DNA of 61,027 nt from Gammaproteobacteria bacterium (GTDB taxonomy: Bacteria; Pseudomonadota; Gammaproteobacteria; SZUA-140), in NCBI GenBank assembly GCA_016218365.1, contig JACREF010000003.1, positions 1 to 61,027 on the forward strand. The letters run 5' to 3'. The first letter of the stretch is position 1. Each line of letters starts with the position of its first letter. Below are positions 5,346 through 27,437 of this stretch, in pieces. The notes beneath the pieces are model-generated. The model was not told the origin of the DNA and did not search any database. It was given only the letters and a program-made list of their open reading frames with translations. A program made the translations under genes and the position numbers.

Positions 5346-5385
5346 ACAATTTTCGCCTAAGATTCACTATCGCCCCGGCACTACA

Positions 5386-7362: not shown

Positions 7363-7372
7363 GGTGATTCCC

Positions 7373-9553: not shown

Positions 9554-9592
9554 TCTCTATTTCTCCAATAGTAAGGAATCGCGGCGCAACAA

Positions 9593-9904
9593 CTACCGCA
9601 GCGACAGAAAAATCCGCCCGTCCTGCAGTCGCACGGCATGGACGGCGGCCTGTCCCTCGTCCGGCGCCACGGCGTGGCCGCTGGCCAGATCGATGCGCCA
9701 GTTGTGCAAGGGACAGGCGACCTTGCAATCGTAGACGATGCCCTGGGACAGCGGACCGCCCTTGTGGGGGCAGTGATCGTCCAGTGCAAAGACCTGGTCC
9801 TCGGCATTGCGAAACACCGCAATGTTGCCCTGCGGCGTGCGCACCACCCGCGCACCCAATCTGGGAATATCCTCGATGCGTCCCACTTCAATCCAGTCGC
9901 TCAT
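9593..9904 (-). CDS. nirD: Nitrite reductase small subunit NirD
   Basis: This 103-residue Rieske-fold protein of the NirD family is the small subunit of NADH-dependent assimilatory nitrite reductase. The sequence keeps CPHKGG and CPLHNW, so both Cys-x-His pairs of a real Rieske cluster are present. Many NirD proteins have lost them, so this one may bind [2Fe-2S]. Its ATG overlaps the nirB stop (ATGA), which indicates translational coupling and roughly equal output. Confidence 0.93.
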   Translation of the reverse strand: MSDWIEVGRIEDIPRLGARVVRTPQGNIAVFRNAEDQVFALDDHCPHKGGPLSQGIVYDCKVACPLHNWRIDLASGHAVAPDEGQAAVHAVRLQDGRIFLSLR

Positions 9905-12342
9905 CCGGCCACCTCTTTCAACAATGTGAACTCATGGGCATCGCTGCCCCCGGAGGCGCGCTCCGCCCACGGGTCCTTCTGGTAATACTGCTGTGAATAG
10001 CGGAAACGCTCGGCGAGCGCGCGCCGCGACTGCGCGTCCTCGACCACCTGCTGCCTGACATGGGACAGCCCGACCCGCTCGACCCAGGGCGCGGTACGCT
10101 CAAGGTAATGGCCCTGTTCACGATACAGCTGGGTGAAGGCGCAGCAATATTCGATGACCTCCTGCTCACTCGCGACCTTGCATAACAGATCGGTGGCCCG
10201 CACCTTGACCCCGCCATTGCCGGCGATATGCAACTCATAACCGGAATCGACACACACCACACCAAAATCCTTGATCGTCGCCTCGGCACAGTTGCGCGGG
10301 CAGCCCGACACCGCCATCTTGAACTTGTGCGGCATCCATGAACCCCAGGTGATGCGCTCCAGCTGCACCCCGAGTCCGGTCGAATCCTGGGTGCCGAAGC
10401 GGCACCACTCGGACCCAACACAGGTCTTGACGGTGCGCAGCGACTTGCCATAGGCGTGGCCCGACACCATGCCGGCCTGGTTCAGATCGAACCATACCGC
10501 CGGCAGGTCCTGCTTGTTGACACCGAGCAGGTCGATACGCTGGCCGCCGGTGACCTTGACGGTCGGAATCTTGAACTTGTCGGCCACATCGGCAATCGCG
10601 CGCAATTCGTCCGGGGTGGTCAGACCACCCCACATCCTGGGCACCACCGAATACGTGCCGTCCTTCTGGATGTTGGCATGGGCCCGCTCATTGATGAAGC
10701 GCGACTGCTGGTCGTCGACGGCGATGTCCGGCCAGCTCGCGATCAGGTAATAATTCAGCGCCGGCCGGCACACATGACAGCCATCACCCGTCTTCCATTC
10801 GAGGAATTGCTGCACCGCCGTGATCGTCGTCAGCTGATGATCGCGGATCGCCTTGCGCACCGCGTCATGGTTATAGTCAGTGCACCGACACAACGGCTTG
10901 TCCTGGGTGGCCGCCGCATAGCCGCCCCCCAATGTGGAGGCCAGGATCTGCTCGACCAGGCCAGTGCACGAACCGCACGACGCCGAGGCCTTGGTATGGG
11001 TACGGACATCATCAAGCGTAAACAGGCCCTTGCCGGTGATCGCCTTGACGATGGTACCCTTGCACACGCCATTGCAACCGCAGACCTCCATGCTGTCTGC
11101 CATCAGCGCCGCGCTGTTCTGCCCGCCATGACCGGAATCGCCAATATGGGCCTGACCAAACATCAGACGGTCACGGAAATCGCTGACATCGGTGCCATCA
11201 CGCAACATCTGGAAGAACCAGGCACCATCACCGGTATCCCCGTACATCACGGCGCCCTGCAGCCGGTTGTCCTTCAGCACCAGCTTCTTGTAGACGCCGC
11301 GCGCCACATCCTTCATGACGATCTCTTCGGAATCTGCACCACCGTGAAAATCACCGGCCGAGAACAGGTCGATGCCGGTGACCTTCAGCTTGGTCGAGGT
11401 CACCGAACCCGTGTAACGGCCGATGCCAAACTGTGCCAGATGGGTGGCGCAGACCTTGGCCTGCTCAAACAACGGTGCCACCAGGCCGTAGGACTGGCCG
11501 CGATGCTGCACACATTCACCGACTGCATAGACCCGCGGATCATAGGTCTGCATCGTGTCGCTGACGATGATGCCGCGCTCGCAATGGATGCCGGCCTGCT
11601 TGGCCAGTTCAATGTTGGGGCGGATGCCGGCCGCCATCACCACCAGCTCGGCCGGGATCTCCAGGCCATCCTTGAAACGTACCGCCCGCACCCGCTCGGT
11701 GCCGAGCAGCGCCTCGGTCTGGGTCGCCATCAGGAACTGCAGCCCGCGCTGTTCCAGACTTTGGCGCAACATCTGGCCGGCGATCGAATCGAGCTGTCGA
11801 TCCATCAAGGTATCAGACAGGTGTACCACCGTCACCGACATGCCGCGCAACATCAGGCCGTTGGCAGCCTCCAGTCCCAACAGGCCACCACCAATGATCA
11901 CGGCATGCCGGTACTGCCGAGCCGCCTCCACCATGGTATCGACGTCATGGATATCACGGAAACCGATGACGCCGTCGAGGTCATGACCCGGCACCGGGAT
12001 GATGAACGGCGTCGAGCCAGTGGCCAGCAACAATCGGTCATAACTCGCGCTTATACCCTGCTCTGATCTTACCTCGCGACGGCGGCGATCGATGCCGGCA
12101 ACCTTGTGGCCAGCATGCAATGTGATGTGATGGTCGTGGTACCACTGCAGATCATTGAGCATGATCTCATCAATGGTCTTTTCACCGGCCAGTACCGGCG
12201 ACAGCAGGATGCGGTTGTAATTGCCATACGGCTCGGCCCCGAACACCGTGATCTCATAGGCATCGGGCGCAATCTTCAACAGCTCCTCGATGGTGCGCAT
12301 CCCCGCCATGCCATTGCCGATCACTACCAAACGCTGTTTCAT
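9901..12342 (-). CDS. nirB: Nitrite reductase large subunit NirB
   Basis: This 813-residue enzyme reduces nitrite to ammonium in the cytoplasm with NADH. It has an N-terminal FAD/NAD(P)H domain (VVIGNGMAG), two BFD-like [2Fe-2S] segments (CGCNGVCKG and CRCTDYNHD regions with following CGSC and CHVC pairs) and a sirohaem/[4Fe-4S] module with CVGSEWC and CPRNC. I chose the ATG at 12342, preceded by GGGGA at good spacing, over an upstream in-frame start at 12393. It heads a five-gene minus-strand unit ending in nasA and is divergent from moaB. Confidence 0.95.
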   Translation of the reverse strand: MKQRLVVIGNGMAGMRTIEELLKIAPDAYEITVFGAEPYGNYNRILLSPVLAGEKTIDEIMLNDLQWYHDHHITLHAGHKVAGIDRRRREVRSEQGISASYDRLLLATGSTPFIIPVPGHDLDGVIGFRDIHDVDTMVEAARQYRHAVIIGGGLLGLEAANGLMLRGMSVTVVHLSDTLMDRQLDSIAGQMLRQSLEQRGLQFLMATQTEALLGTERVRAVRFKDGLEIPAELVVMAAGIRPNIELAKQAGIHCERGIIVSDTMQTYDPRVYAVGECVQHRGQSYGLVAPLFEQAKVCATHLAQFGIGRYTGSVTSTKLKVTGIDLFSAGDFHGGADSEEIVMKDVARGVYKKLVLKDNRLQGAVMYGDTGDGAWFFQMLRDGTDVSDFRDRLMFGQAHIGDSGHGGQNSAALMADSMEVCGCNGVCKGTIVKAITGKGLFTLDDVRTHTKASASCGSCTGLVEQILASTLGGGYAAATQDKPLCRCTDYNHDAVRKAIRDHQLTTITAVQQFLEWKTGDGCHVCRPALNYYLIASWPDIAVDDQQSRFINERAHANIQKDGTYSVVPRMWGGLTTPDELRAIADVADKFKIPTVKVTGGQRIDLLGVNKQDLPAVWFDLNQAGMVSGHAYGKSLRTVKTCVGSEWCRFGTQDSTGLGVQLERITWGSWMPHKFKMAVSGCPRNCAEATIKDFGVVCVDSGYELHIAGNGGVKVRATDLLCKVASEQEVIEYCCAFTQLYREQGHYLERTAPWVERVGLSHVRQQVVEDAQSRRALAERFRYSQQYYQKDPWAERASGGSDAHEFTLLKEVAG

Positions 12343-12376
12343 GCTGCATCCCCGAATCAATTCACTACATCTGCAT

Positions 12377-12393
12377 ATCAACTCCTGTGCCAA
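12377..12393 (-). promoter_or_regulatory. Possible sigma-54 promoter of nirB operon
   Basis: Read on the minus strand the element is TTGGCACAGGAGTTGAT. The -24 half (TTGGCAC) is ideal, but the -12 dinucleotide is GA instead of GC. It ends 34 bp upstream of the nirB ATG. Stronger versions of the same element precede nasT and narK, which raises the chance that this one is real. Confidence 0.4.
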
Positions 12394-12447
12394 TCTGATC
12401 GGTTGCGCAATGCACTGTTTATGAACATATTATTTCGACATCGACGA

Positions 12448-12469
12448 TGCGGGCAGTGCAGTGCCCGCA
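12448..12469. repeat. Inverted repeat in nirB-moaB divergent region
   Basis: Eight-bp perfect arms (TGCGGGCA/TGCCCGCA) flank a 6-base loop. It sits in the 280-bp gap between the divergent nirB and moaB. No T-tract follows on either strand, so it is not an ordinary terminator. It could be an operator shared by both promoters or an RNA hairpin in the nirB leader. Confidence 0.4.
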
Positions 12470-12622
12470 CCACGACAGTGCAGCCGTACCCGAATCCGCA
12501 CAAACAAACGCCGCCGCACATGGTCGCAGCACCATCTTGATACCCGATGACGCTGCTTCTGTTGCCGGCCATGGACCTGCGCCCCTATAATCCGGGCTGG
12601 TATCCTCACACTGCTGATCATC

Positions 12623-13147
12623 ATGGCCACCGATTCCACTACACACCGCGTCTCCCTCGCCATTGCGATCCTGACGATCTCCGACACCCGTGATGAACGC
12701 TCGGACAGCAGCGGCACACTGCTCGCTGAACGGGCCCTACAGGATGGTCATCAGCTGGTCCAGCGCGCGATCATCCGCGACGACAAATACCAGATCCGCG
12801 CCCGGATCAGCCAATGGATCGCCGCTGCCGATGTCCAGGTCATCATCACCAGCGGCGGCACCGGCGTCACCGGCCGCGATATCACGCCGGAGGCCGTGAC
12901 ACCGTTATTTGATCGCGAACTGGCGGGATTCGGTGAGACCTTCCGCTTGCTGTCCTATCAGCAGATCGGGCCATCGACGATCCTGTCGCGCGCCGTCGCC
13001 GGCATCGCCAATGGGACGCTGATCTTCTGCCTGCCCGGCTCCAACCATGCCTGTGCTCTGGCCTGGGACCAGATCATCGGCAAGCTGCTCGACAGTGACA
13101 ACAAGCCTTGCAACTTTGCCAAGCTGATGTCCCGGCTTGCTGAATAG
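12623..13147 (+). CDS. moaB: Molybdenum cofactor biosynthesis protein MoaB
   Basis: This 174-residue MoaB/Mog-fold protein carries the signature TSGGTGVTGRD followed by TPEAV, and a later LPGS. The family adenylylates molybdopterin or acts in metal insertion. It is transcribed away from the nirB operon, so a shared control region could link cofactor supply to the five molybdenum and sirohaem genes opposite. Three bis-MGD reductases in this window would need its product. Confidence 0.92.
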   Translation: MATDSTTHRVSLAIAILTISDTRDERSDSSGTLLAERALQDGHQLVQRAIIRDDKYQIRARISQWIAAADVQVIITSGGTGVTGRDITPEAVTPLFDRELAGFGETFRLLSYQQIGPSTILSRAVAGIANGTLIFCLPGSNHACALAWDQIIGKLLDSDNKPCNFAKLMSRLAE

Positions 13148-13324
13148 GCGACAGCCGACAGGGTCTGCTCCACGTTGGCCGCATGGCCATCGCATACTGC
13201 CGTGATGATTGACTGTGGCCGGCAACACGGCTACGGTGACAGCGGGCATGGCGGCCATAATAGTTGATTAAAATAATAAGGTATCAGGCCCAAGCGGCGC
13301 CAGTAAAGCCCGGACAGCACCCCG

Positions 13325-13346
13325 CCGCTAACTGCACAGTTAGCGG
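13325..13346. promoter_or_regulatory. Perfect 22-bp palindrome before HAMP gene
   Basis: Ten-bp arms CCGCTAACTG and CAGTTAGCGG flank a central CA, ending 38 bp before the next ATG. There is no T-tract, and the near-zero loop argues for a protein-binding operator more than a terminator, although it could end moaB transcription. Confidence 0.45.
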
Positions 13347-13384
13347 TCAATGCGACCCATCAAGCAACAGCATGGAGTCCAGGG

Positions 13385-13927
13385 ATGAAGAACCGTCGCG
13401 CCAACAGCAAGATCAAACGCCAGTTCCAGAACCAGGTCATCTTCAATGTCGTCGTTGCATCATTCTGCCTGCTGAACCTGGTACTGATCTGGGTCTTCGC
13501 AGCGATCGACACCCTGCAGGATGTGTCGGCACTGAAGACCATGATTGTCACGGCACTCGCCATCGGTGAGACCGGCGGCCTGTTCGTCATCTATCATTAT
13601 ATGAAACGTGAGACCCACCGCATCGCCGGCCCGGTCTACAAGCTGGAACAGGCGCTGGACCATGTGGGCTCCGGCAACCTGTCGACCACGATCCAATTCC
13701 GCAAGGACGATTACTTCCGGGACACCGGCGACCTGTTCAATAGCTCGATCAGCAAGCTGCGCACCCGTATCGGCCATATCCGCCATGTCGCGCTGTCGCT
13801 GGAAAAAGAACTGATCAGCCATGGCGCCACCCACGGTGACGCCAGCCTGTATCTGAAACAACTGGTCTCGGCGCTGGACAGCCTGCAACTCGGTGAGGAC
13901 AGCGCGCATCATGATACAAAATCATAA
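13385..13927 (+). CDS. Two-TM membrane protein with HAMP-like linker
   Basis: This 180-residue protein has two hydrophobic segments (about 18-42 and 53-72) with a very short loop between them. A HAMP-like region then starts at IAGPVYKLEQALDHVGSGNLS, and a helical tail reaches the C-terminus. There is no kinase, cyclase or chemotaxis output domain. It sits 75 bp upstream of napF on the same strand, so it may be read with the nap operon. Similar short proteins occur near respiratory operons, but no function is established. It could dock onto a sensor kinase or chemoreceptor. Confidence 0.75.
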   Translation: MKNRRANSKIKRQFQNQVIFNVVVASFCLLNLVLIWVFAAIDTLQDVSALKTMIVTALAIGETGGLFVIYHYMKRETHRIAGPVYKLEQALDHVGSGNLSTTIQFRKDDYFRDTGDLFNSSISKLRTRIGHIRHVALSLEKELISHGATHGDASLYLKQLVSALDSLQLGEDSAHHDTKS

Positions 13928-14002
13928 ATCGATATGACAGGGTAAGCACGACCGGATCAATGCCAGTTACCTGATCCCAGCAATGAGGCGAGACCTGAAA
14001 CC

Positions 14003-14335
14003 ATGACCATCGACGCCCGCCCGACAACAGACTTGAGCCGCAGGGCACTGCTGGGACTGCCTGCCGGATCGCACCGCGACACCGATCACCACCCGGGACA
14101 CGACGCCTCACCGGTGCGCCGGCGTGCCGTCATCGCCAACAACTGCCTGGTGAACTCAGGCATCGACTGCCGCCAGTGCGTTGAGGACTGCCCACAGCAG
14201 GCCATCAGCTTCTCCATCACGCTTGGCGGCCTTCAGCTGCGGCTCGACGACCCGCGCTGTGATGGCTGCGGGGAGTGCCGGCCACGCTGCCCGACCCAGG
14301 CCATCTCCCTCCATCAATCCCCGGGGCAATCATGA
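14003..14335 (+). CDS. napF: NapF-like ferredoxin
   Basis: This 110-residue cytoplasmic ferredoxin belongs to the NapF family, which helps mature NapA before export. Two clusters remain: CLVNSGIDCRQCVEDCP, whose first Cys spacing is characteristic of NapF, and CDGCGECRPRCP. The N-terminus retains LSRRALLG. Standard NapF proteins are about 160 residues with more cluster motifs, so this one appears shortened. It opens the napFDABC unit and ends one base before the napD ATG. Confidence 0.85.
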   Translation: MTIDARPTTDLSRRALLGLPAGSHRDTDHHPGHDASPVRRRAVIANNCLVNSGIDCRQCVEDCPQQAISFSITLGGLQLRLDDPRCDGCGECRPRCPTQAISLHQSPGQS

Positions 14336-14336
14336 C

Positions 14337-14597
14337 ATGCATCTGTCCAGCCTGATCATCAACGTCCGGCCCGAGAAACTGTCACAGGTGCGCAGCCGCA
14401 TTGAGGCGGCACCGCTGACCGAGGTCCACCTCGCGGATGCCAGCGGCACGCTGATCGTCACCGTTGAGGCCGCCGACCTCGGCGTACTGGTCGAGGTCGT
14501 CGAAGGTTTCCGTGATATCGACGGTGTGCTGTGCCTGACCCCGAGCAGCCACTACTTCGAAGAAGACAACCTTGCCGAACAGGAGATCCGCCGATGA
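14337..14597 (+). CDS. napD: NapD, NapA-specific Tat chaperone
   Basis: This 86-residue protein matches the NapD ferredoxin-like fold, starting [13 protein letters not shown] and containing the [10 protein letters not shown] segment. NapD binds the Tat signal of NapA and delays export until the cofactor is inserted. The ATG at 14337 follows the napF stop. Its own stop overlaps the napA start (ATGA). Its length is normal for the family. Confidence 0.93.
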
Positions 14598-17083
14598 AGC
14601 TGAGCAGGCGTGAATTCATCAAGATCAGCGCCGTGGCTGCCGCGGCCAGCAGCGCCGGCCTTACCGCACCCCAGGTCGGTGCCGGGCCACTGGTCGCCGG
14701 TGATCCGATCCGCTGGGACAAGGCGCCCTGCCGCTTCTGCGGTGTCGGCTGCGGCGTACTGGTCGGCACCCAGGATGGCCGCGTCGTCGCGACCCAGGCC
14801 GATCCGCAGGCCGAGGTCAACCGTGGACTGCAGTGCGTCAAGGGTTATTTCCTGTCGAAGATCATGTATGGCAGCGACCGGTTGACGACGCCGCTGCTGC
14901 GCAAGAAAAACGGCGTCTATGACAAGGAAGGCGAGTTCGAGGCCGTCAGCTGGGATGAGGCCTTCGATACCATGGCCCGCAAATACAAGGAGGCCTTGCG
15001 CACCAAGGGCGCGGGCTCGATCGGCATGTTCGGCTCCGGGCAGTGGACGATCTGGGAGGGCTATGCCGCCGTCAAGCTGATGAAGGCCGGCTTCCGCTCC
15101 AACCACCTCGATCCGAATGCCCGCCACTGCATGGCCTCGGCGGTCGCAGCGATGATGCGCAGTTTCGGCATGGATGAGCCGATGGGTTGTTATGATGACT
15201 TTGAACACGCCGATGCCTTTGTGCTGTGGGGCTCCAACATGGCCGAGATGCATCCGGTGCTGTGGTCCAGACTGACCAACCGCCGATTGTCTGCCGATCA
15301 TGTCCGCGTCGCAGTGTTGTCCACGTTTACACACCGCTGCTTTGACCTGGCCGACCAGGGCATCATCTTCCAGCCGCAGTCCGACCTCGCGATCCTCAAC
15401 TACATCGCCCATCACATCATCAGCAGTGGCGCAGTCAACAAGGAGTTCGTCACCAGCCATACCTCCTTCCGCCTTGGCAACGCCGACATCGGCTATGGGC
15501 TGAAGGCCAGCCATCCCTTGCAGAAGGCAGCCACTAACGTCGATGACGCTGGCGGCGCCAAGACTATCAGCTTCGACGACTACAAGGCCTTTGTCGCCCA
15601 TTACACGCTGGACGAGGCCCACCGCATCTCCGGGGTGCCGAAGGAGCAGTTGCAGGCGCTGGCCGAGTTGTATGCCGACCCCAAGCGCAAGATCATGTCG
15701 CTGTGGACCATGGGCGTCAACCAGCATACCCGCGGCACCTGGGCCAATCACCTGATCTATAACCTGCACCTGCTGACCGGCAAGATCTCGCAGCCCGGCA
15801 ACAGCCCGTTCTCGCTGACCGGTCAACCATCGGCCTGCGGCACCGCGCGCGAGGTCGGCACCTTCTCGCACCGGTTGCCGGCCGACATGGTGGTCACCAA
15901 TCCCAAACACCGCGCCGAGGCCGAGCATATCTGGCGACTGCCGCCCGGCATCATCCCGGAAAAACCCGGCTATCATGCCGTCGAACAGAATCGCCGCCTC
16001 AGCGCCGGCGAGCTGAATGTCTACTGGGTGATGTGCAGCAACAATATGCAGGCCGCGCCCAATATGCTCGAAGACGCCTGGAAGGGCTATCGTGACCCGC
16101 GCAACTTCGTCATCGTCTCCGACGTCTACCCGACAGTGACGACGCTGGCCGCCGACCTGATCCTGCCGACCGCGATGTGGGTCGAGAAGGAGGGCGCCTA
16201 TGGCAATGCCGAACGCCGCACCCAGTTCTGGCGCCAGCAGGTCCGGGCGCCGGGCGAGGCGCGCTCCGACCTGTGGCAGCTGGTCGAATTTTCCAAGCAC
16301 TTCCGCACCCAGGAGGTGTGGCCAGCCGAGATCCTCGATGCCCACCCCGCTTACCGCGGCAAATCGCTGTACGACGTGTTGTTCGTCAACGGCGAGACCA
16401 ACAAGTTCCCGCTGGCGCAGCTGCAACCGGGTCATGACAATGACGAAGCCCGGCACTTCGGCTTTTATCTGCAGAAGGGTCTGTTCGAGGAGTACGCGCG
16501 CTTTGGCCGCGGTCATGGCCATGACCTGGCAACCTTCGACACCTATCACCAGGTGCGCGGGCTGCGCTGGCCGGTGGTCAATGGCAAGGAGACCAGCTGG
16601 CGCTACCACCGCGGCAGCGACCCGTATGCAAAAAACGGCGAGGAGTTCCAGTTCTATGGTCGTGAAGACAACAAGGCACTGATCTTTGCGCTGCCCTATG
16701 AACCACCGCCGGAGATGCCGGACCAGGACTATGACCTGTGGCTGGTTACCGGCCGCGTGCTCGAACACTGGCATTCCGGTTCAATGACGCGGCGGGTGCC
16801 GGAGCTGCACCGTGCAGTGCCGAATGCCCAGATCTTCATGCATCCGGACGATGCCAAGCAGCGTGGGCTGGAACGCGGCATGGCCGCCAGGGTGCAATCG
16901 CGGCGCGGCGAGATCATCGCGCTGATCGAGACCAAGGGCCGTAACCGGCCACCACCGGGCGTGATCTTTGTGCCGTGGTTCGATGCCAGCCGGTTGATCA
17001 ACAAGGTCACGCTGGACGCGACCTGCCCGATCTCGAAACAGACCGATTACAAGAAATGTGCGGTCAGGATAACCCGGGCGTGA
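14594..17083 (+). CDS. napA: Periplasmic nitrate reductase NapA
   Basis: This 829-residue enzyme is almost the same length as well-studied NapA proteins. It opens with a twin-arginine signal ([10 protein letters not shown]). The [4Fe-4S] ligands are C46, C49, C53 and C81, and C179 in RHCMASAV is the molybdenum ligand. It reduces nitrate to nitrite in the periplasm with electrons from NapB. The start at 14594 overlaps napD by 4 bp; the longer upstream frame lies inside napD and would displace the Tat signal. The role could be denitrification, redox balancing or ammonification. Confidence 0.96.
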
Positions 17084-17096
17084 CGGAGACATACCG

Positions 17097-17624
17097 ATGA
17101 AAAATCTGGTCGCAGGAACGGTGGCGGTACTGGTGCTGCTCGCGGTGATGTACCTGGTGCCGTCAAAGATCGAATCACTGGTGACGCACTACGCGGCCGA
17201 GGACAACACTGCTGCATGGCAGATGGACACCGAACTGGCGCAGGACGGCCTGTTTGATCCATTGCGCGGCCAGACACCGGTGACCTCGTCCAACCCGCCA
17301 CCACCCGCCTATCACTATGCGACCAATACCGGACCAATTGCGCGCAATTACCTGACCCAGCCACCGGTGATCCCGCACAAGATCGACGGCTACGACATCA
17401 ACATGCGCAGCAACAAATGCCTGAGCTGTCACAGCTGGCGCAGCTACCGCGAATGGGGGGCCACCAAGATCAGCCTGACCCACTACCGCGACCGCGATGG
17501 CAGGGAACTGGACGACGTGTCACCATTGCGCTATTTCTGCACCCAGTGCCATGTGCCGCAGCTGGACGCCAGGCCGCTGGTGCGTAATGATTTCCGGCCG
17601 GTTGCATCACTGGACGCACGCTGA
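17097..17624 (+). CDS. napB: NapB, periplasmic dihaem cytochrome c
   Basis: This 175-residue electron donor to NapA has two haem motifs, CLSCH and CTQCH, with the typical PHKIDGYDINMRSNKC lead to the first. The N-terminus (about 4-21) is hydrophobic and serves as a Sec signal or membrane anchor. It follows napA by 13 bp and precedes napC, so electrons would pass NapC, NapB, NapA. Confidence 0.94.
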   Translation: MKNLVAGTVAVLVLLAVMYLVPSKIESLVTHYAAEDNTAAWQMDTELAQDGLFDPLRGQTPVTSSNPPPPAYHYATNTGPIARNYLTQPPVIPHKIDGYDINMRSNKCLSCHSWRSYREWGATKISLTHYRDRDGRELDDVSPLRYFCTQCHVPQLDARPLVRNDFRPVASLDAR

Positions 17625-17648
17625 TCATCGAAAGCAACGAGGCCCACG

Positions 17649-18236
17649 GTGCTCGAACAAGACGACAAGGTAGTAGAAGACAAACCCCGTCACCCGTTGC
17701 TGGCCTGGCTGCTCAGCGGCACGGTACTGGGCGCCTTCGCCGCCGGCATCATCTTCTGGGGCGGCTTCAATACGCTGCTGGAGGCGACCAATCGCGAGGC
17801 CTTCTGCCTGACCTGCCATGAGATGAAGGACAATGTCTACCGCGAATATGTCAGCAGCATCCATTACAGCAACCGTACCGGGGTGCGCGCCACCTGCCCG
17901 GATTGCCATGTGCCGAAGGACTGGACCCACAAGATGGCCCGCAAGCTCCAGGCCTCGTCCGAGGTCTATCACAAGATCGTCGGCACCGTCGATACCCCGG
18001 AAAAATTCGAGGCCCATCGGCTGCAGCTGGCGCAGAATGTCTGGCGGACGATGAAGCTGACCAATTCGCGCGAGTGCCGCAACTGTCACTCGTTTGATTA
18101 TATGGACTTCACGGCCCAGGACATGCGCGCGGTGCGCAAACACAGCACGGCGCAGACTGCCGGCCAGACCTGCATCGACTGCCACAAGGGCATCGCCCAC
18201 AAGCTGCCGCTGGCCAACTTCACGACCGCCGATTAA
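17649..18236 (+). CDS. napC: NapC, membrane tetrahaem quinol dehydrogenase
   Basis: This 195-residue NapC/NirT-family cytochrome has one N-terminal transmembrane helix (about 20-42) and four haem motifs: CLTCH, CPDCH, CRNCH and CIDCH. It takes electrons from quinol and passes them to NapB. The GTG start is chosen from the frame and an upstream ACGAGG at long spacing. No napG or napH is present, so electrons must enter through NapC alone. It closes the napFDABC operon. Confidence 0.94.
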
Positions 18237-19229: not shown

Positions 19230-20492
19230 TCAGAACTGCAGGTCTGCCTGCAACCACAGCTTGTCGAGATCCTGTGACTTGGCAAGGTTGCGTGCGACGT
19301 TGTTACTGTTGGCATCGCCGCTGTACGCGGCATATTTCGCCAGCAGCGTGACCGTGTTGCCGAACTTCTTCGCTGCCGACAGGTTCAGCTCGGTGCCGTA
19401 GTCATAACCCAGATGATCGGCGCTGTATTGATGGTAGGCAGCCATCAGGTTGACGCCGGCAACCGGCATGCCGAAGGTCATAAACATGTCCTGGATGCCA
19501 TCCTGCGGCGTCGTCAGGAACTTGTCCGCCCAACCATTGAAGGCATGCAGGGTTGCCAAGGGTGTCGCGAACCCATAGGTCCCGTCACCGCTCAACAGCT
19601 CATAATGCAGCTTGATCTGCAGGCCGCTGACATCGGCGCCCAGCATCAGGTAATTATAGCTGCCATCCACCGTGCTGGCACCGTCGGCATAACTGCCCTG
19701 GCTGGCGTATTCGGCAGTGTACAGCCATTTGGTGCCCTGGCCACCCGGCTGATAACCACCATCAAGGCGCAGCCCGACGGTCTGATTCGAGGCTGTAACG
19801 GCAAAGGCCTGGCCAGCATTGTAATCGAGCAGATAACCATAGGCTGAAATAGTGCCGGGCTTGAACCCCTTGTAGGAAAGATTCAGCAGGTCGCTGGACA
19901 TATTGACCTTGCCCTGACTACTCGCAGCACCAAATACCCGGTTGACGCTATCAACATGGGCATAAAATACCGTGCCGTCCGGTAACGAGGTATTGCTCAG
20001 GCTCAGTGCGTCAAAGGTCTGCTGGTTCTGCCGCCAGTCGACGCTGCCGACAAAGCGCTGATTGTCGAGCGCGATCGTCTGCCGGCCATATTTGATGACG
20101 GTATTGGTGAGCCCCTTGTAACTCAGATAACCCTGATTGGCCTCGGTGCCGCGCGGATCACTGACGGTCGGATACTGGGTCAGACCGTTGACCCCGCTGT
20201 TATAGCGCTCATCGCCAACAACACGCACATCCTCGAACTGCACGAACGCAGAGAGCGCCTTATAATCACCGGTCAAATAGCCCAGTTGAGTGCGCAGCGT
20301 CGAGGCCGTTGCGGTCTCGGCCTTGGTTACATCGTCAACCTGTTCCAGACGGTAGCGCAGCTGGCCGGAGGCCTTGCCGGCCTTGATCGCCTCCACGATA
20401 CCCTCCGCCATGGCCAGCCCCGGGCATACCATGCCCAGCCAAAGCACCGCTGTCGTCACTGCCAGTCGGCGAGGTTTGGAAATAATATTCAT
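19230..20492 (-). CDS. Alginate-export-type outer membrane porin, nrt-linked
   Basis: This 420-residue protein has a signal peptide (cleavage near AMAEG) and alternating beta-strand segments ending in an aromatic residue (DLQF), as expected of an outer membrane barrel. The RYRLEQVDD opening, YGRQTIALDNQRFVGSVDWRQN and QTFDAL match the alginate_exp family. It lies 34 bp after the nitrate ABC ATPase with the strong site AAGGAG, so it looks like the last gene of nrtABC. Nitrate or nitrite passage across the outer membrane is inferred from context only. Confidence 0.82.
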   Translation of the reverse strand: MNIISKPRRLAVTTAVLWLGMVCPGLAMAEGIVEAIKAGKASGQLRYRLEQVDDVTKAETATASTLRTQLGYLTGDYKALSAFVQFEDVRVVGDERYNSGVNGLTQYPTVSDPRGTEANQGYLSYKGLTNTVIKYGRQTIALDNQRFVGSVDWRQNQQTFDALSLSNTSLPDGTVFYAHVDSVNRVFGAASSQGKVNMSSDLLNLSYKGFKPGTISAYGYLLDYNAGQAFAVTASNQTVGLRLDGGYQPGGQGTKWLYTAEYASQGSYADGASTVDGSYNYLMLGADVSGLQIKLHYELLSGDGTYGFATPLATLHAFNGWADKFLTTPQDGIQDMFMTFGMPVAGVNLMAAYHQYSADHLGYDYGTELNLSAAKKFGNTVTLLAKYAAYSGDANSNNVARNLAKSQDLDKLWLQADLQF

Positions 20493-20526: not shown

Positions 20527-21318
20527 TCAGGCCACTGCCCGGTGTTGTCGTTCGTAGAGAAATTTCAGCAATTCACCGCGCAGCATTGCATAACGGGGAT
20601 TAGCCGCCAGGGTCAGGCGATCACGCGGCCGCGGCAGATCGACCTCCAGTATCCCGCCGATCGTGGCCGCGGGGCCGTTGCTCATCATCACGACGCGGTC
20701 CGACAGCAGCACCGCTTCGTCGACATCATGCGTCACCATGATGGTCGTACTGCCTGCGGCAGCGACAATGCGCAGCAGCTCATCCTGAAGATGGGCACGT
20801 GTCAGGGCATCCAGCGCGCCGAATGGCTCATCCAGCAGCAACACCTTGGGTTGCATCGACAGCGCGCGGGCGATCCCGACCCGCTGTTTCATGCCGCCGG
20901 AGATCTCATGCGGCATCTTGTGCAGCGCATGTCCAAGACCCACCATCTCCAGCGCCGCCGTCGTCCGTTGTCTTAACTGGGGACGGCGCTCGTTGCGACC
21001 GAAGACTCGCTCCACAGCCAGATAGACATTGCCGAAACAGCTCAGCCACGGCAGCAATGAGTGATTCTGGAACACCACGGCACGATCGGGTCCGGCACCG
21101 GCGATCTCTCGGCCGGCACACAACATCACACCACTGGTCGCCTTGTTCAGCCCCGCAATCAGATTCAGCAGTGTCGACTTGCCACAACCCGAATGGCCGA
21201 TGATCGAGACAAACTCCCCTTGCCCGACCGCAAGATTGATGTCACGCAGCGCCACGAACGCCCCCTTCCTGGTTGCAAATACCTGCCCCACATCTTCCAG
21301 CAACACATACTTGTTCAT
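20527..21318 (-). CDS. nrtC: Nitrate ABC transporter ATP-binding protein
   Basis: This 263-residue ABC ATPase has Walker A GHSGCGKST, the signature segment ISGGMKQR and Walker B VLLLDEPFGALD, and matches the nitrate/taurine importer group. It lacks the NrtA-like C-terminal domain of cyanobacterial NrtC, so its layout is that of NrtD/NasD. I set the start at 21318 (AGGGA upstream) and not at a longer in-frame ATG that lies in the permease gene. Confidence 0.92.
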   Translation of the reverse strand: MNKYVLLEDVGQVFATRKGAFVALRDINLAVGQGEFVSIIGHSGCGKSTLLNLIAGLNKATSGVMLCAGREIAGAGPDRAVVFQNHSLLPWLSCFGNVYLAVERVFGRNERRPQLRQRTTAALEMVGLGHALHKMPHEISGGMKQRVGIARALSMQPKVLLLDEPFGALDALTRAHLQDELLRIVAAAGSTTIMVTHDVDEAVLLSDRVVMMSNGPAATIGGILEVDLPRPRDRLTLAANPRYAMLRGELLKFLYERQHRAVA

Positions 21319-21334
21319 ATCCGCATCCCTTATG

Positions 21335-22246
21335 TCAATATTCAAAGCGTTTCGCCACCAGCAACAGCAACTGCTCGAGCAACAGGCCGATGATGCCGAC
21401 GACGAAGATGGCGATGATGATGTGCTCGACATTCAGATTATTCCATTCATCCCAGACCCAGAATCCGAGACCGACACCACCGGTCAGCATCTCGGCGGCA
21501 ACGATCACCAGCCACGCGACACCGATCGACAGCCTGATGCCGGTCATCATGTAGGGCAGCACGGCCGGAAACAGGATGCGGGTGAAGATCCTCCATTCCG
21601 ACAGGTTCAGCACCCGGGCGACATTCAGATAATCCTGTGGCACCCTGCTGACACCGACCGCAGTATTGATGATCATCGGCCAGATGCTGGAGATGAAGAT
21701 CACCCAGATCGCCGCCGGTTGCGCCTCCTTGAACACCAGCAACCCGATCGGCAGCCAGGCCAGTGGCGACACCGGGCGCAGCAGGCTGATGATCGGTGCT
21801 GTCATATAGTTGAGAAATGAAAAGCGTCCCACCATAAAACCGAGCGGAATCCCGACCAGTGCCGCCATGCCGAAACCCAGGCCGACGCGCTGCAACGAAT
21901 GCACGATATTCCAGCCTATACCCTTGTCATTGGGTCCGTTGTCATAGAACGGATCGTCAAACAACTCCAGCGCAGACTGCCAGGTCTTGGCAGGCCCTGG
22001 CAGGTTAACACTCTGCTCGGCCAGCAGCGCCCACAGCAGCACAAACAGCAGCAGCCCGAGCAGCGCTGGCAGCACCTTGTGAACCAGCAGCTCACCCATT
22101 GCATTGGCGGACCGTCCCGGTCGTGCGCCGTCATCACTGGATAACCGTGCGGCCGGTGGTGGAACGCCTGCCATTTTTTCCACACTATTGCCCCCGGGTA
22201 CACTGTCCGGCTGTGGTAAATCTTTCTTGATCTGTGACACATTCAT
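21335..22246 (-). CDS. nrtB: Nitrate ABC transporter permease
   Basis: This 303-residue inner membrane permease of the NrtB/TauC type has a first helix near residues 60-80 and a BPD_transp_1 domain with five or six more helices. The coupling-loop motif EAS-like segment reads RVPQDYLNVARVLNLSEWRIF. The ATG at 22246 follows GAGGG at 8 bp. An ATG at 22261 overlapping the nrtA stop is the alternative. It imports nitrate with NrtA and the ATPase. Confidence 0.92.
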   Translation of the reverse strand: MNVSQIKKDLPQPDSVPGGNSVEKMAGVPPPAARLSSDDGARPGRSANAMGELLVHKVLPALLGLLLFVLLWALLAEQSVNLPGPAKTWQSALELFDDPFYDNGPNDKGIGWNIVHSLQRVGLGFGMAALVGIPLGFMVGRFSFLNYMTAPIISLLRPVSPLAWLPIGLLVFKEAQPAAIWVIFISSIWPMIINTAVGVSRVPQDYLNVARVLNLSEWRIFTRILFPAVLPYMMTGIRLSIGVAWLVIVAAEMLTGGVGLGFWVWDEWNNLNVEHIIIAIFVVGIIGLLLEQLLLLVAKRFEY

Positions 22247-22257
22247 CCCGGCAACCC

Positions 22258-23538
22258 TCATGCCCTGATCTTGAAACTGGCGGCATAGCCGGCAGGATCC
22301 TTGCCTGCCCAGACGCCGCCATCGATAAACTTGCTGGCGCGCAACACATCCCTGGGCACGGCGGTCTTGACCTGCGCGGCCGCCTGCTTAAACAACTCGA
22401 CCTGATTGACCTCGCGGGCCACGGCCAGATAATCAGGATCAGTCTTCAACAGCCCCCAGCGTTTATGCTGGGTCATAAACCACATGCCATCAGACAACCA
22501 TGGGAAGTTGACCTTGCCGTCGTGATAAAACTTCATGTAATTGGCGTCCCGCCACTGCCGCCCGATGCCGTTATCGTATTGACCGATAAAGCGCCCCTCG
22601 ATGACCTCGGCCGGCGCATTGACATAGGACTTGCCAGCGATGATCCCGGCAACACCCTGGCGGTTGGCCACCGTGTCGATATATTTTGATGCCTCGATCA
22701 CTGCCATGATCATGGCGCGTGCGGTATTGGGATATTTCTGTACAAACTCCTGTGTCGTCCCCAGCACCTTCTCCGGATGATCGGGCCAGATATCCTGGGT
22801 CGTCGCGGCCGTAAATCCGACCTTGTCGTAGATGGCGCGGGCATTCCACGGCTCACCGACACAGAAGCCGTCCATATTGCCGACGCGCATGTTGGCCACC
22901 ATCTGCGGCGGCGGCACGACAATGGTCTTGACGTCATTGAAAGGGTGGATGCCATGGGCGGCCAGCCAGTAATACAGCCACATCGCATGGGTGCCGGTTG
23001 GAAAGGTCTGGGCGAAGGTGTATTCGCGCTTTTCGGCATCAAGCAGTTTTTTCAGCGATGGTCCGTCAGTCACGCCCTTGTCCTTCAACTGGTTGGCCAG
23101 TGTAATGGCCTGACCGTTGTTATTAAGATTCATTAGAATCGCCATGTTCTTCTGCGGCCCGCCCGTCCCGAGATGCACGCCATAGATCAGTCCGTACAGT
23201 ACATGCGCCGCATCCAGCTCGCCGTTGGTCAGCTTGTCGCGCACCCCGGCCCAGCTGGCCTCCTTCGACAACGTGACCTCCAGGCCATATTTCTTGAACA
23301 GCCCCAGCTCATAGGCCATGACGACACTGGCGCAATCGGTCAGCGGGATAAAGCCGATTTTGAGCTGCGGCTTTTCCGGCGCATCGGAACCGGCCGCCCA
23401 GGCCGCGCTGCGCACCCCAGCCGGGATCAGCCCTGCCAGTGCCAGACCGCCGGCCGCCAGACCACCCTTTTTGAGGAAATCACGCCGTGATACATCAGTT
23501 GGTTTCCGATCTTTGTTGTCATGATCATTGTTGTCCAT
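22258..23538 (-). CDS. nrtA: Nitrate-binding protein NrtA
   Basis: This 426-residue periplasmic binding protein has a twin-arginine signal (SRRDFLKK at 17-24) and then a hydrophobic stretch ending AWA. The mature part starts LKIGFIPLTDCA, the typical NrtA/CmpA beginning, and contains the nitrate-family segments GVHLGTGGPQ and GNMDGFCVGEPWNARA. The ATG at 23538 has an ideal AGGAGG. Its leader carries the ANTAR target and terminator described separately. Confidence 0.94.
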   Translation of the reverse strand: MDNNDHDNKDRKPTDVSRRDFLKKGGLAAGGLALAGLIPAGVRSAAWAAGSDAPEKPQLKIGFIPLTDCASVVMAYELGLFKKYGLEVTLSKEASWAGVRDKLTNGELDAAHVLYGLIYGVHLGTGGPQKNMAILMNLNNNGQAITLANQLKDKGVTDGPSLKKLLDAEKREYTFAQTFPTGTHAMWLYYWLAAHGIHPFNDVKTIVVPPPQMVANMRVGNMDGFCVGEPWNARAIYDKVGFTAATTQDIWPDHPEKVLGTTQEFVQKYPNTARAMIMAVIEASKYIDTVANRQGVAGIIAGKSYVNAPAEVIEGRFIGQYDNGIGRQWRDANYMKFYHDGKVNFPWLSDGMWFMTQHKRWGLLKTDPDYLAVAREVNQVELFKQAAAQVKTAVPRDVLRASKFIDGGVWAGKDPAGYAASFKIRA

Positions 23539-23560: not shown

Positions 23561-23610
23561 AAAAAAGGCGCCCACACTCACGGCCGGATGCCGTGGATGT
23601 GGACGCCTTT
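23561..23610 (-). terminator. Intrinsic terminator/attenuator before nrtA
   Basis: On the minus strand a long stem (AAAGGCG paired with CGCCTTT at its base and CACGGC with GCCGTG at its top, loop ATCCG, a few internal mismatches) is followed at once by TTTTTT. It ends 23 bp before the nrtA ATG, so it would stop transcripts from nasT unless prevented. Its 5' arm overlaps the second ANTAR hairpin, so the two structures exclude each other. Confidence 0.85.
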
Positions 23611-23637
23611 GTCCGGGTACAGCCCGCCATTGGGCTG
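23601..23637 (-). promoter_or_regulatory. ANTAR-protein RNA target (two hexaloop hairpins)
   Basis: On the minus strand the first hairpin (23637-23620) is CAGCCC-AATGGC-GGGCTG and the second (23614-23601) is GGAC-AAAGGC-GTCC, with a 5-base linker. Both have six-base loops with A at position 1 and G at position 4, the known hallmark of ANTAR-bound antiterminator RNAs. The second hairpin uses bases of the terminator's 5' arm. The ANTAR regulator gene nasT is directly upstream. Confidence 0.85.
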
Positions 23638-23658
23638 CTGATGTCTGCAAAAAAAACG

Positions 23659-24240
23659 CTACTCCAGCATCCGTGCCGCCATGATGATGCTGTTCGATAC
23701 CTCGACCAGACGCAGATTGCGATTCATCGCCATGGCGCGCATCCGGTCATAGGCCTGATCCTCGGTGCAGTCAAGCTGGCGCATCAGGATGCCCTTGGCA
23801 CGCTCGATGAGCTTGCGCTCCGACAACTGACCCGACACCCTGCGCAGCTCCTCCTTCACCATCCTCAGCCGGTCAAACTGCGCCACTGCCACATCGATGA
23901 CCGGCTTGATCCCCCGCACATCAGGCGCCGCCACCACGTAGCCACAGACGCCGGCGGTGATCGCGGCGCGGACCCGCTCCGGCGCGCTGTCTGCGGTAAA
24001 GACCACCACCGGCAGCGGATGCTCGGCATCCAGACGCTGCAACTGCGCCAGCAATTCATCCGTCACCGTTGGCATCCTGACCACGACTATATCCGGTTGC
24101 ACGTCCTTCACATCCTGGCACAATCTGAAACAGGCGCGGATATGACACATGATTTCACAATCCGCTGCCGTCAGACCGGCCTCCAGCATATGCTCGCCAA
24201 GAGCATGACTGTCATCAACCAGCATCACACGCCGCTTCAT
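23659..24240 (-). CDS. nasT: NasT-type ANTAR antiterminator
   Basis: This 193-residue regulator has a receiver-like N-terminus (LVDDS near 7-11) and a C-terminal ANTAR domain (LIERAKGILMRQLDCTEDQAYDRMRAMAM). ANTAR proteins bind paired hairpins in nascent RNA and prevent termination. At the usual phosphorylated Asp position the sequence reads DIVVVRMP, so the acceptor Asp appears replaced by Arg. That fits the NasS/NasT type, where a nitrate-sensing partner and not phosphorylation sets activity. No nasS is seen in the window. The start at 24240 is preceded by AAAGG. Confidence 0.9.
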   Translation of the reverse strand: MKRRVMLVDDSHALGEHMLEAGLTAADCEIMCHIRACFRLCQDVKDVQPDIVVVRMPTVTDELLAQLQRLDAEHPLPVVVFTADSAPERVRAAITAGVCGYVVAAPDVRGIKPVIDVAVAQFDRLRMVKEELRRVSGQLSERKLIERAKGILMRQLDCTEDQAYDRMRAMAMNRNLRLVEVSNSIIMAARMLE

Positions 24241-24278: not shown

Positions 24279-24295
24279 AGCAAATGACATGCCAA
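24279..24295 (-). promoter_or_regulatory. Sigma-54 promoter of nasT-nrtABC-porin
   Basis: On the minus strand TTGGCATGTCATTTGCT has GG and GC spaced by 10 bases and near-ideal -24 and -12 halves. It ends 38 bp before the nasT ATG. This predicts control by NtrC or another enhancer-binding protein under nitrogen limitation. Confidence 0.75.
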
Positions 24296-24435
24296 TATGC
24301 GTCCCATCCAATACTGCATGAAAATCACCCTGTTGCAACAACGGCGCTGATATCTGCCCTGATACAACATACAAATACAGGGCGGCGTTGTGGTCAAAAG
24401 TAATTTTATGGTGCACGGATTATCTCGCGGCGTGA

Positions 24436-26136
24436 TTACCGGAACGCCAGACTGAAGATCAGCAATGACAACAACGCCAGCGACAACACCTGCCACACCA
24501 GCAACGGATTACGTTGATACAACGGCTGCCTGGCGACACTGTCAGACTGACCATGACTTAGGCCATGTTCAAGCTCGAAGGCCAGCTCCAGTGTGTCACT
24601 GTAACGTTGTGTCGGGTCGACAGCGATCGCTTTCATGACCACCGCATCGAGCCATGCCGGAATATCTGCACGATAACGGCTCAACGCCGTCGGCCGGGTA
24701 AAGCGCGGCTGCTGAAATGGCTCGATCTCGCCATACGGATAATGGCCGGTGAAGATCCGGTACAGCGTAACGCCGAGCGCATACAGATCGGTCTGTTCAT
24801 CGCCGGGATTGCCAGCGAACATCTCGGGCGCCATATAACTCGGGGTACCGGGGATGTCCGGTGCCGCAGCCGCCTCGATACCCGGCAGGCGCGCGACGCC
24901 CAGGTCCAGCAGCTTCAGATTGCCATCATCAGCGATGATGACATTGTCCGGCTTGATGTCGCGATGGATGATGCGATTGCGATGCAGGGCATGGATGATG
25001 CGGCCAAGTCTGATGCCGATCTCGACACCTTCAGCCAGGCCAACGTGCGCCCTGCCACAGAACCTGTGCTCCAGCGTAGTGCCAGGGCAATAGGGCATCA
25101 CGCCATACAATGCGCCCTGCCTGTCGCCCCCGGCGGCGGCAATGGTCAGCACTGAAGGGTTCCTGATCCGGCCCGACAACCAGATCTCGCGGATAAAGGC
25201 CTCACGCACCGCACGGTCTGAGGCGCGGCGCGGATGCGGAAACTTCAACACCACCTGCTGATCATCGCGCAAGGTATCGTCGGCCAGATACAGCCGGCTG
25301 TAACTGCCATCGGACAGCATCATGCCGATCCGGTAACCATCAATAATCTGACCCGGTGCCGGCAGATCGCGGATCGGCAATACGCCGATAACGGAGGCCA
25401 CATCAGATTGCTGCGCTGACGGCACCTCAAGCACCTCGACCACCAGCGCCGTCATATTATCAGCGGAACCCGCATCATAGGCAGCCCTGACGATCTGCTG
25501 CGCACAGACCTCCGGGTTCAGGCCCGAGGCCAGCAGTTCATGCAGCTGACGCTGTTTCAGCACGCCATGGATGCCGTCGCTGCACAGCAGATAGCGATCA
25601 TGCGCCGCCAGCTCATGTAAGGCATGATCGGCACGCAGCCCTTCGTCTACGCCGACGACACGATACAACACATGATTAAGATCGGGCTGATTCAGCGTGT
25701 GGTCCGTGGTCAGGCCCGTCAGGCGACCACTGCGCAGCCGATAGATGCGACAATCACCGACATGGATGATATGGGCATGACGGCCGCGCAGGATCAACCC
25801 TGAAAATGTCGTCGCCATGCCACGCAGCTGGCTGTCACAGCGCCCCTGGCTGACCAGCCAGCTGTTGACGCTGTTCAGCGCCTTGGCTGCGGCGCGCTCG
25901 ACACCGAGCATCTCCGGCAGGCTGTAATAGCCATCGATAAAGCTGCGCACGCAGGTCTCGGCCGCCTCGCGCCCGCCATCGCTGCCACCGACGCCGTCGG
26001 CAATCGCCGCAACAACATCCTGCAGACCATGCCCGGCGACGTCACCGAGACAGACCGCGACATAATCTTCATTATTGTCGCGACGCCCGGTCTCGGTCGC
26101 CAGACCGGTCACCACCTGCAGGCGCTTATTATCCAT
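24436..26136 (-). CDS. PP2C phosphatase / Ser-Thr kinase fusion
   Basis: This 566-residue protein has a PP2C phosphatase domain at about 1-240 (NNEDY, ADGVGG, GDCRIY, LCSDGIHG, DNMTALV), a Hanks-type kinase at about 270-530 (VVLKFPHP, HRDIKPDNV, LLDLGVAR with DLG for DFG, PSYMAPEMF) and one C-terminal membrane helix. Such fusions are known in proteobacterial nitrate assimilation clusters. The target is unknown; the transporters or NasT are candidates. It follows narK by 17 bp. The ATG at 26136 fits the domain start, and an ATG at 26145 is possible. The longer upstream frame is an artefact over narK. Confidence 0.9.
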   Translation of the reverse strand: MDNKRLQVVTGLATETGRRDNNEDYVAVCLGDVAGHGLQDVVAAIADGVGGSDGGREAAETCVRSFIDGYYSLPEMLGVERAAAKALNSVNSWLVSQGRCDSQLRGMATTFSGLILRGRHAHIIHVGDCRIYRLRSGRLTGLTTDHTLNQPDLNHVLYRVVGVDEGLRADHALHELAAHDRYLLCSDGIHGVLKQRQLHELLASGLNPEVCAQQIVRAAYDAGSADNMTALVVEVLEVPSAQQSDVASVIGVLPIRDLPAPGQIIDGYRIGMMLSDGSYSRLYLADDTLRDDQQVVLKFPHPRRASDRAVREAFIREIWLSGRIRNPSVLTIAAAGGDRQGALYGVMPYCPGTTLEHRFCGRAHVGLAEGVEIGIRLGRIIHALHRNRIIHRDIKPDNVIIADDGNLKLLDLGVARLPGIEAAAAPDIPGTPSYMAPEMFAGNPGDEQTDLYALGVTLYRIFTGHYPYGEIEPFQQPRFTRPTALSRYRADIPAWLDAVVMKAIAVDPTQRYSDTLELAFELEHGLSHGQSDSVARQPLYQRNPLLVWQVLSLALLSLLIFSLAFR

Positions 26137-26153
26137 GGACCACATCCATTGAT

Positions 26154-27437
26154 TTATACCCGTGCCCCGGACACCGCGCCCCAGGTCGTGCGCCAGCGCC
26201 GTTTGACACGGCGGATGCCGAACAGACCGCTGAGCGCCAGCGCGGCGAACACCCAGAAGCCGATCGCAAAGCTGCCACTCGCCGCCTGCGACCAGCCCAG
26301 TGCCTTGGCCAGCATGAAACCACCGACCCCGCCGCCGGCACCGACCAGACCGGTCATCACCCCCATCTGCTGGCGAAAGCGCAGCGGCACCAGCTGGAAC
26401 ACCGCGCCATTGCCCATACCGAGCGCCATCGCACCGATGAAGAAGATCAGCACCGCCAGCCACGCGACACCGGGCAGCTCCATCATCCCCCAGCCGGCAA
26501 CCTTGGCCGTGCCGTCGATGACCGCCGGCCACGGCCCTTCAGGCATAAAGGCAATCAGAAAATAACAGAGCGCGACGACGGTGAACAGGATCTGCAATGA
26601 ACGGATGCCGCCAAAGCGGTCGGCCATCATGCCGCCGACCGGACGGAAGATCGAACCGGCAAACACCACGATCGCCGCCAGCAGGCCGGCAGCGACACCG
26701 GAGACATGAAACCAGGTGACGAAATACAGCGGCAGCGCATTGGCCAGCCCGACGAAGCCGCCGAAGGTGATGAAATAGAAAAACATGAACCACCAGGTAT
26801 CGCTGTCCTGCAATACCTCGAGGTAGGCCGCCCGTGACACACTGCTCCGCTGTTCCGGTGCATCCTTTGCCATCAGCGTATACAGCACGAATACGATCAG
26901 CAGCGGCAACAGCAGAAAACCGAACACCGACTGCCAGCCATACTGCTCGGCCAGCGACGGCACCAGCAGCGCATCCAGCACCACGCCCATGTTACCGGCA
27001 CCGGCGATGCCGAGCACGATGCCCTGATAACGCGGCGGATACCAGCGACTGGCCTGCGGCAGTGCAACGGCAAAACTGGCACCGGCGACCCCGAGCACAA
27101 CACCCATCAACTCGACCGCAAGCTTGCTGTCAAAGCCGAACAGCCACGCATAGCCCATACCAAACATAACGATTAGCTGGCCGATCTGGCCAGCCTTCTT
27201 CGGTCCGATATGATCGGCGAGCATGCCGAGCGGGATGCGCAATAAGGCCCCGCACAGGATCGGGATCGCGACGATGGTAAACTTCTCGCCGATCGGAATA
27301 TTCAGATCCTGGGTGATATACAGCGCCAGCGGCCCCAGCACCACCCATACCATGAAACTGACATCAAAATATAAAAAGGCCGACAGCAGCGTCGGGAAGT
27401 GGCCGGCCTGCCTGAACTCGCGAAAACTACTCTTCAT
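26154..27437 (-). CDS. narK: NarK-family nitrate/nitrite MFS transporter
   Basis: This 427-residue major facilitator has 12 helices. Family motifs are clear: GALLRIPLG in helix 2, the glycine-rich GVAGASFAVALPQASRWYP near helix 5 and GNMGVV. These belong to the NarK1/NasA-type nitrate importers. I place the start at 27437 (GGGGGA upstream) because the longer frame lacks family similarity. It leads a two-gene unit with the PP2C/kinase under a sigma-54-type promoter and is a second uptake route beside nrtABC. Confidence 0.92.
   Translation of the reverse strand: MKSSFREFRQAGHFPTLLSAFLYFDVSFMVWVVLGPLALYITQDLNIPIGEKFTIVAIPILCGALLRIPLGMLADHIGPKKAGQIGQLIVMFGMGYAWLFGFDSKLAVELMGVVLGVAGASFAVALPQASRWYPPRYQGIVLGIAGAGNMGVVLDALLVPSLAEQYGWQSVFGFLLLPLLIVFVLYTLMAKDAPEQRSSVSRAAYLEVLQDSDTWWFMFFYFITFGGFVGLANALPLYFVTWFHVSGVAAGLLAAIVVFAGSIFRPVGGMMADRFGGIRSLQILFTVVALCYFLIAFMPEGPWPAVIDGTAKVAGWGMMELPGVAWLAVLIFFIGAMALGMGNGAVFQLVPLRFRQQMGVMTGLVGAGGGVGGFMLAKALGWSQAASGSFAIGFWVFAALALSGLFGIRRVKRRWRTTWGAVSGARV

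Follow-up and report, generated by a model that had tools for sequence, protein, structure and literature searches.

A putative ANTAR-type attenuator between nasT and nrtA in a gammaproteobacterial genome with no detected NasS

What activates NasT in a genome without NasS? Where the system has been studied, NasT is held by NasS, an NrtA-like protein that lacks an export signal, until nitrate is bound (PMC3795266). The window (the whole stretch of DNA that was analysed, 61,027 nt of a gammaproteobacterial contig) poses this question directly through its wiring, in which the value of the locus lies: a lone regulator gene with a single target, both apparently on the same transcript, and no NasS found. 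An earlier note had proposed an ANTAR-controlled attenuator between nasT and nrtA. Loop identities, terminator overlap, covariation and conservation all support this proposal, and the element is very probably an ANTAR-type transcription attenuator that acts with NasT on RNA from a predicted sigma-54 start 5' of nasT. The features of the locus are as follows.

19230..20492, minus strand: outer-membrane porin of the Alginate_exp family (PF13372, 53.7 bits), 34 nt past nrtC
20527..21318, minus strand: nrtC, nitrate ABC ATPase (TIGR01184, 336.7 bits, above cut-off), start set by homology, short form without the NrtA-like tail
21335..22246, minus strand: nrtB, nitrate ABC permease (TIGR01183, 255.8 bits, above cut-off)
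22258..23538, minus strand: nrtA, nitrate-binding protein (PF13379, 367 bits) with the twin-arginine signal SRRDFLKK (TAT_signal_seq)
23561..23610, minus strand: intrinsic terminator, stem about -36 kcal/mol, six-U run at 23566-23561
23601..23614, minus strand: P2 (antiterminator) hairpin GGAC-AAAGGC-GUCC, hexaloop AAAGGC, supported by strict scan, covariation and covariance model
23619..23638, minus strand: P1 hairpin GCAGCCC-AAUGGC-GGGCUGU, hexaloop AAUGGC, 7 bp including an outer G-U
23659..24240, minus strand: nasT, receiver-like plus ANTAR domain, 193 aa (PF03861, 69.8 bits)
24279..24294, minus strand: sigma-54 promoter-like site TGGCATGTCATTTGCT, 12/12 scored positions, upstream of nasT

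The dual-hexaloop element and its conservation

The nasT-nrtA gap comprises 121 nt on the minus strand, from the nasT stop at 23659 to the nrtA ATG at 23538, which places nasT directly upstream of the element as had been claimed; AGGAGG lies ahead of the nrtA start codon. The two proposed hairpins can be read directly in this gap on the minus strand, with A1 and G4 in both hexaloops. Their reported separation of 5 bases stands if P1 is taken as 6 bp (5-6 nt) and fails if P1 is taken as 7 bp, where the spacer is ACCC (4 nt). The terminator stem spans 23610..23562 or slightly less. Its 5' arm contains the P2 loop and 3' arm, and the proposed overlap of the second hairpin with a terminator ending before nrtA thus amounts to 10 bases (23610..23601). 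Because the P2 loop and 3' arm double as the start of the terminator 5' arm, P2 and the terminator are mutually exclusive. The U-run ends at 23561, in agreement with the stop predicted there.

The computed stabilities are -12.3 kcal/mol for P1, -4.0 kcal/mol for P2 and -36 kcal/mol for the terminator. When the growing transcript is folded to minimum energy, P2 appears at most RNA ends from 23600 to 23576 (not at 23584), and the terminator has taken its place by 23568, suggesting that a binding protein has little time in which to act.

Among 5000 dinucleotide shuffles of the gap, none produced a dual hexaloop of equal strength and 2 produced a weaker pair. Scanning both strands of the window with strict criteria gave one pair, where 0.05 was expected, and the fold of the region has a z of -5.2 relative to shuffles. 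The covariance-model check for an ANTAR target suggested in the earlier note was carried out with a model that left out the window and was trained on 27 further nasT loci. Its score for the element was 44.9 bits; E was 4e-8 against the window and 1.5e-6 against the 2.26 Mb genome, where this was the single element found and the next match had E=1.4. The genome encodes one ANTAR protein and one ANTAR target.

About 90 nasT loci were gathered by genome search and from named GTDB genomes. In 42 of them, loop letters and a matching terminator alone sufficed to anchor a dual hexaloop; a detector limited to stems of at least 4 bp and gaps of at most 20 had overlooked real elements whose spacers were longer and was relaxed for this set. 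In the 42 loci, the P1 arms pair at 6.4 of 7 positions, compared with 3.9 when partners are exchanged, and none of 3000 permutations reached the observed value. Among 28 aligned loci, 95.8% of cells are paired and no slid version exceeds 52%. Double-change cells number 74 compared with 22 in shuffles, with a covariation score of 0.74 compared with 0.24. The stems of P1 and P2 are under selection for pairing. Loop positions A1, A2 and G4 are invariant in this alignment, these letters having been among the selection criteria.

Some relatives differ in arrangement. Locus L004 has three successive hexaloop hairpins (AATGGC, AACGGC, AACGGC) rather than two before its terminator (1406-1475, minus strand). 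In L020, L024 and L063, the dual hexaloop sits about 15-222 nt past the nasT stop and is followed by a NasS-like gene that lacks a clear export signal, so the inhibitor itself may be NasT-controlled there.

NasT, the promoter layout and the proposed switch

The receiver of NasT matches PF00072 with only 24.4 bits (cut-off 30.2) and has Arg at the position of the phospho-acceptor Asp. Residues R142, K143, K147 and M172 are reported to matter in EutV (PMC8934654). When NasT numbering is matched to EutV via the 6wsh alignment, R142, K143 and M172 are kept and R147 replaces K147; NasT has an ANTAR domain with the RNA-contact residues. Taken together, the loops, the covariation, the single genomic ANTAR protein and the kept contact residues indicate that the element is an ANTAR target, leaving NasT as its only predicted candidate ligand in the genome.

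The sigma-54 promoter-like site TGGCATG-TCAT-TTGCT has -24/-12 elements at the correct spacing and precedes the nasT start by about 40 nt. Such 12/12 sites are expected by chance 0.25 times per window. Comparable sites occur upstream of nasT in relatives (12/12 in L004 and L090; 11/12 in L020), and rpoN is encoded in the genome. NtrC sites 5' of the promoter are not established; one half-site-like TGCACC lies at 24415.

Most relatives have a long-gap layout: the dual hairpin follows nasT at a distance of 100-450 nt, and a sigma-54-like site occurs at most 130 nt 5' of P1, suggesting that nrtA there has its own start. In the compact layout, to which the window belongs, P1 lies less than 100 nt past nasT. 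A sigma-54 site is present in the gap of 25 of 27 long-gap loci compared with 2 of 11 compact loci (p=1.6e-5); a layout without this gap promoter is found in the window and a minority of gammaproteobacteria. In the window, no sigma-54-like site (at least 10/12) was found between the nasT stop and P1, and no sigma-70-like promoter was found on the minus strand of the gap. Gene order and the lack of a sigma-54-like site in the gap support the proposal that the regulator sits on the transcript it controls. The single sigma-54 start also proposed is supported by the 12/12 site, the presence of rpoN and a layout common to several compact relatives. Read-through from the narK-kinase region is possible, so this promoter may not be the sole source of transcript.

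In the narK-nasT interval, 24439-26532 on the minus strand encodes a protein that combines PP2C phosphatase with Ser/Thr kinase domains and whose listed start overlaps narK and is probably too far upstream. An 11/12 sigma-54-like site at 27496-27481 (minus strand) lies just 5' of the likely narK start. Elsewhere in the window, a periplasmic nap cluster, nirB and the assimilatory nitrate reductase occupy 2688-18236, and no ANTAR target precedes any of them. In L005, L006, L009, L010 and L014, nasT directly follows a related porin gene. A further dual hexaloop precedes a nasT-preceding porin at L009:82-117 and L150:1502-1541 (both plus strand; L009 and the L005 genome), an arrangement that would place nasT under its own switch.

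In the mechanism we propose, RNA polymerase would start at the sigma-54 promoter 5' of nasT and transcribe nasT, followed by P1 and P2. Without active NasT, the far stronger terminator would soon replace P2, and the message would stop at 23561 as a nasT-only RNA. NasT bound to both hexaloops would hold P2, preventing the terminator, and transcription would continue into nrtABC and the porin gene. The short and the long message would both encode NasT, so nitrogen limitation (presumably through sigma-54 and NtrC) would supply the regulator first, and the regulator would then open the transporter genes.

Candidate partners of NasT

A search of the genome (97% complete) with proteins and a mixed NasS/NrtA profile returned a single match, the NrtA with the TAT signal, which aligns over its full length with the solved Synechocystis NrtA 2g29 (E=3.5e-81). 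With classical NasS absent, NasT would either be gated by another partner or act by amount alone. The part of the earlier proposal in which nitrate brings about the long message is supported by none of these tests, and the evidence is equally compatible with an amount-only circuit and with NrtA as the partner.

Action by amount alone, in which sigma-54-dependent nitrogen limitation raises NasT and nrtABC opens later with or without nitrate, is a possible but by no means favoured account. It agrees with the failure to find NasS, the loss of the phospho-acceptor Asp and the apparent location of nasT on the nrtABC message. However, the studied ANTAR proteins (NasR, AmiR-AmiC, NasT-NasS and EutV) are gated by a ligand or partner, and related lineages have kept signal-less NrtA derivatives beside nasT, suggesting that a partner matters.

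The strongest candidate for such a partner is NrtA that has yet to be exported. By analogy with NasS elsewhere, apo-NrtA would hold NasT before export and nitrate would release it, a reading that we advance only tentatively. The twin-arginine route exports folded proteins. NrtA is the sole NrtA/NasS homologue in the genome, and among 24 further genomes with the nasT-switch-nrtA order no signal-less homologue was seen among the strong matches read, some of these genomes being incomplete drafts and weak fragments having been read only in part. Second NrtA-like proteins in L123-L128 (450-480 aa) have a 50-70 aa extension before the twin-arginine signal. These extra copies were considered as NasS candidates and rejected, as those read carry RR export signals.

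Phylogeny also bears on this candidate. The NrtA of the window falls in a clade apart from classical NasS (support 100/100). Within the NrtA clade, nested among exported NrtAs, there is an 8-row group (98/100) of signal-less proteins beside nasT from Massilia, Pseudoduganella, Janthinobacterium and others, and L073 is a second signal-less case. A single clade of exported rows was rejected (p-AU 0.017; a first tree had served to name the group, and some branches are long). L068 was relabelled in the second tree, its 'S' label in the first having been judged false. Remnants of the mature NrtA N-terminus are kept in L072 and L068. The signal-less copies beside nasT within this clade appear to have arisen secondarily, sometimes with the ABC transporter gone: no NtrB permease above the cut-off was found in six genomes with a signal-less copy (G073, G076, G078, G079, G080 and G031). 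In G074, G075 and G077, a second, TAT-bearing NrtA lies beside nrtB, and duties there look split. That a nitrate-binding protein from this clade persisted next to nasT despite loss of its export signal makes NrtA a plausible NasT partner in single-copy genomes. Against this role, the exported pool is beyond the reach of NasT, NrtA may remain in the cytosol only briefly, and sensing may date only from the loss of the signal.

The fuller proposal that in this lineage exported twin-arginine NrtA also serves as a cytosolic NasT sensor before export, and that NasS-like sensors re-arose from NrtA by loss of the export signal, is doubtful. If true, one protein would both feed the transporter and gate the RNA switch that precedes the gene encoding it. 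Genomes with a single exported NrtA, with split exported and cytosolic copies, and without the transporter but with a cytosolic copy beside nasT offer natural comparisons.

The genome also encodes a protein with a NIT domain, a nitrate-sensing family, at G000:C9:46551-47246 (minus strand), not fused to ANTAR. Its score of 113.7 bits would favour action on NasT by another nitrate sensor such as this one, but it lies on another contig and has no ANTAR domain, and we consider this improbable. NIT domains are also found in chemoreceptors and kinases.

A plain nasT terminator with incidental hexaloops and nrtA read from its own promoter is highly improbable. In its favour, the terminator is very stable by itself, at about -36 kcal/mol, and most relatives do carry a separate sigma-54 promoter for nrtA between nasT and the leader. 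Against it, in the window only 22 nt separate the U-run from the nrtA start codon, the gap holds no sigma-54-like site from the nasT stop to P1 and no sigma-70-like site on this strand, and the hexaloop stems covary, which is not required of a bare terminator. The attenuator acting with NasT thus remains our preferred reading of the element.

Comparison with Rfam and known systems

At the gathering threshold, Rfam gave nothing in the window, and 16 related loci gave only two tRNAs and no RF03032. Below it, the RF03032 narK RNA model matches 23600-23660 (minus strand) over its full length (model 1-72) with 23.7 bits (gathering score 43.2). The printed consensus of RF03032, GGcagCC-AACGGC-GGcugCC plus CGAC-AAAGAC-GUCG, has hexaloops with A1 and G4, which suggests, as a side implication of this work, that narK RNA is itself an ANTAR target. 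Our literature search found no paper naming narK RNA. MicroRNA and ctRNA matches to the terminator were dismissed as chance hairpin matches.

ANTAR antitermination is established mechanistically for EutV (PMC3369931, PMC8934654), and Table S2 of PMC3369931 may already list a number of the present nrtA sites. Klebsiella NasR resembles the present system in ANTAR antitermination of nitrate-assimilation genes, but has its own nitrate-sensing NIT domain, which NasT here does not. The NasS-NasT systems of Paracoccus, Azotobacter and Bradyrhizobium (PMC3795266, PMC5424462, PMC6759348) share a NasT-type protein with a receiver-like and an ANTAR domain, and leader hairpins before nitrate genes; in Paracoccus, hairpin I of the nasA leader is required for expression and for growth on nitrate (PMC5424462). 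In contrast to these systems, nasS is absent here, and whereas nasTS and nasABGHC of Paracoccus are separate transcriptional units (PMC5424462), nasT and nrtABC here apparently form one. The eut system of EutV in Enterococcus faecalis shares the dual A1/G4 hexaloops, the short spacer, the second hairpin within the terminator and the contact residues. It differs in that the genes here are nitrate genes, no kinase is known, the receiver has no phospho-acceptor Asp, and the target apparently lies on the regulator's own transcript. Collectively, the switch is of a known kind, ANTAR antitermination, and what is unusual is the absence of NasS together with its place on the apparent transcript of its own regulator.
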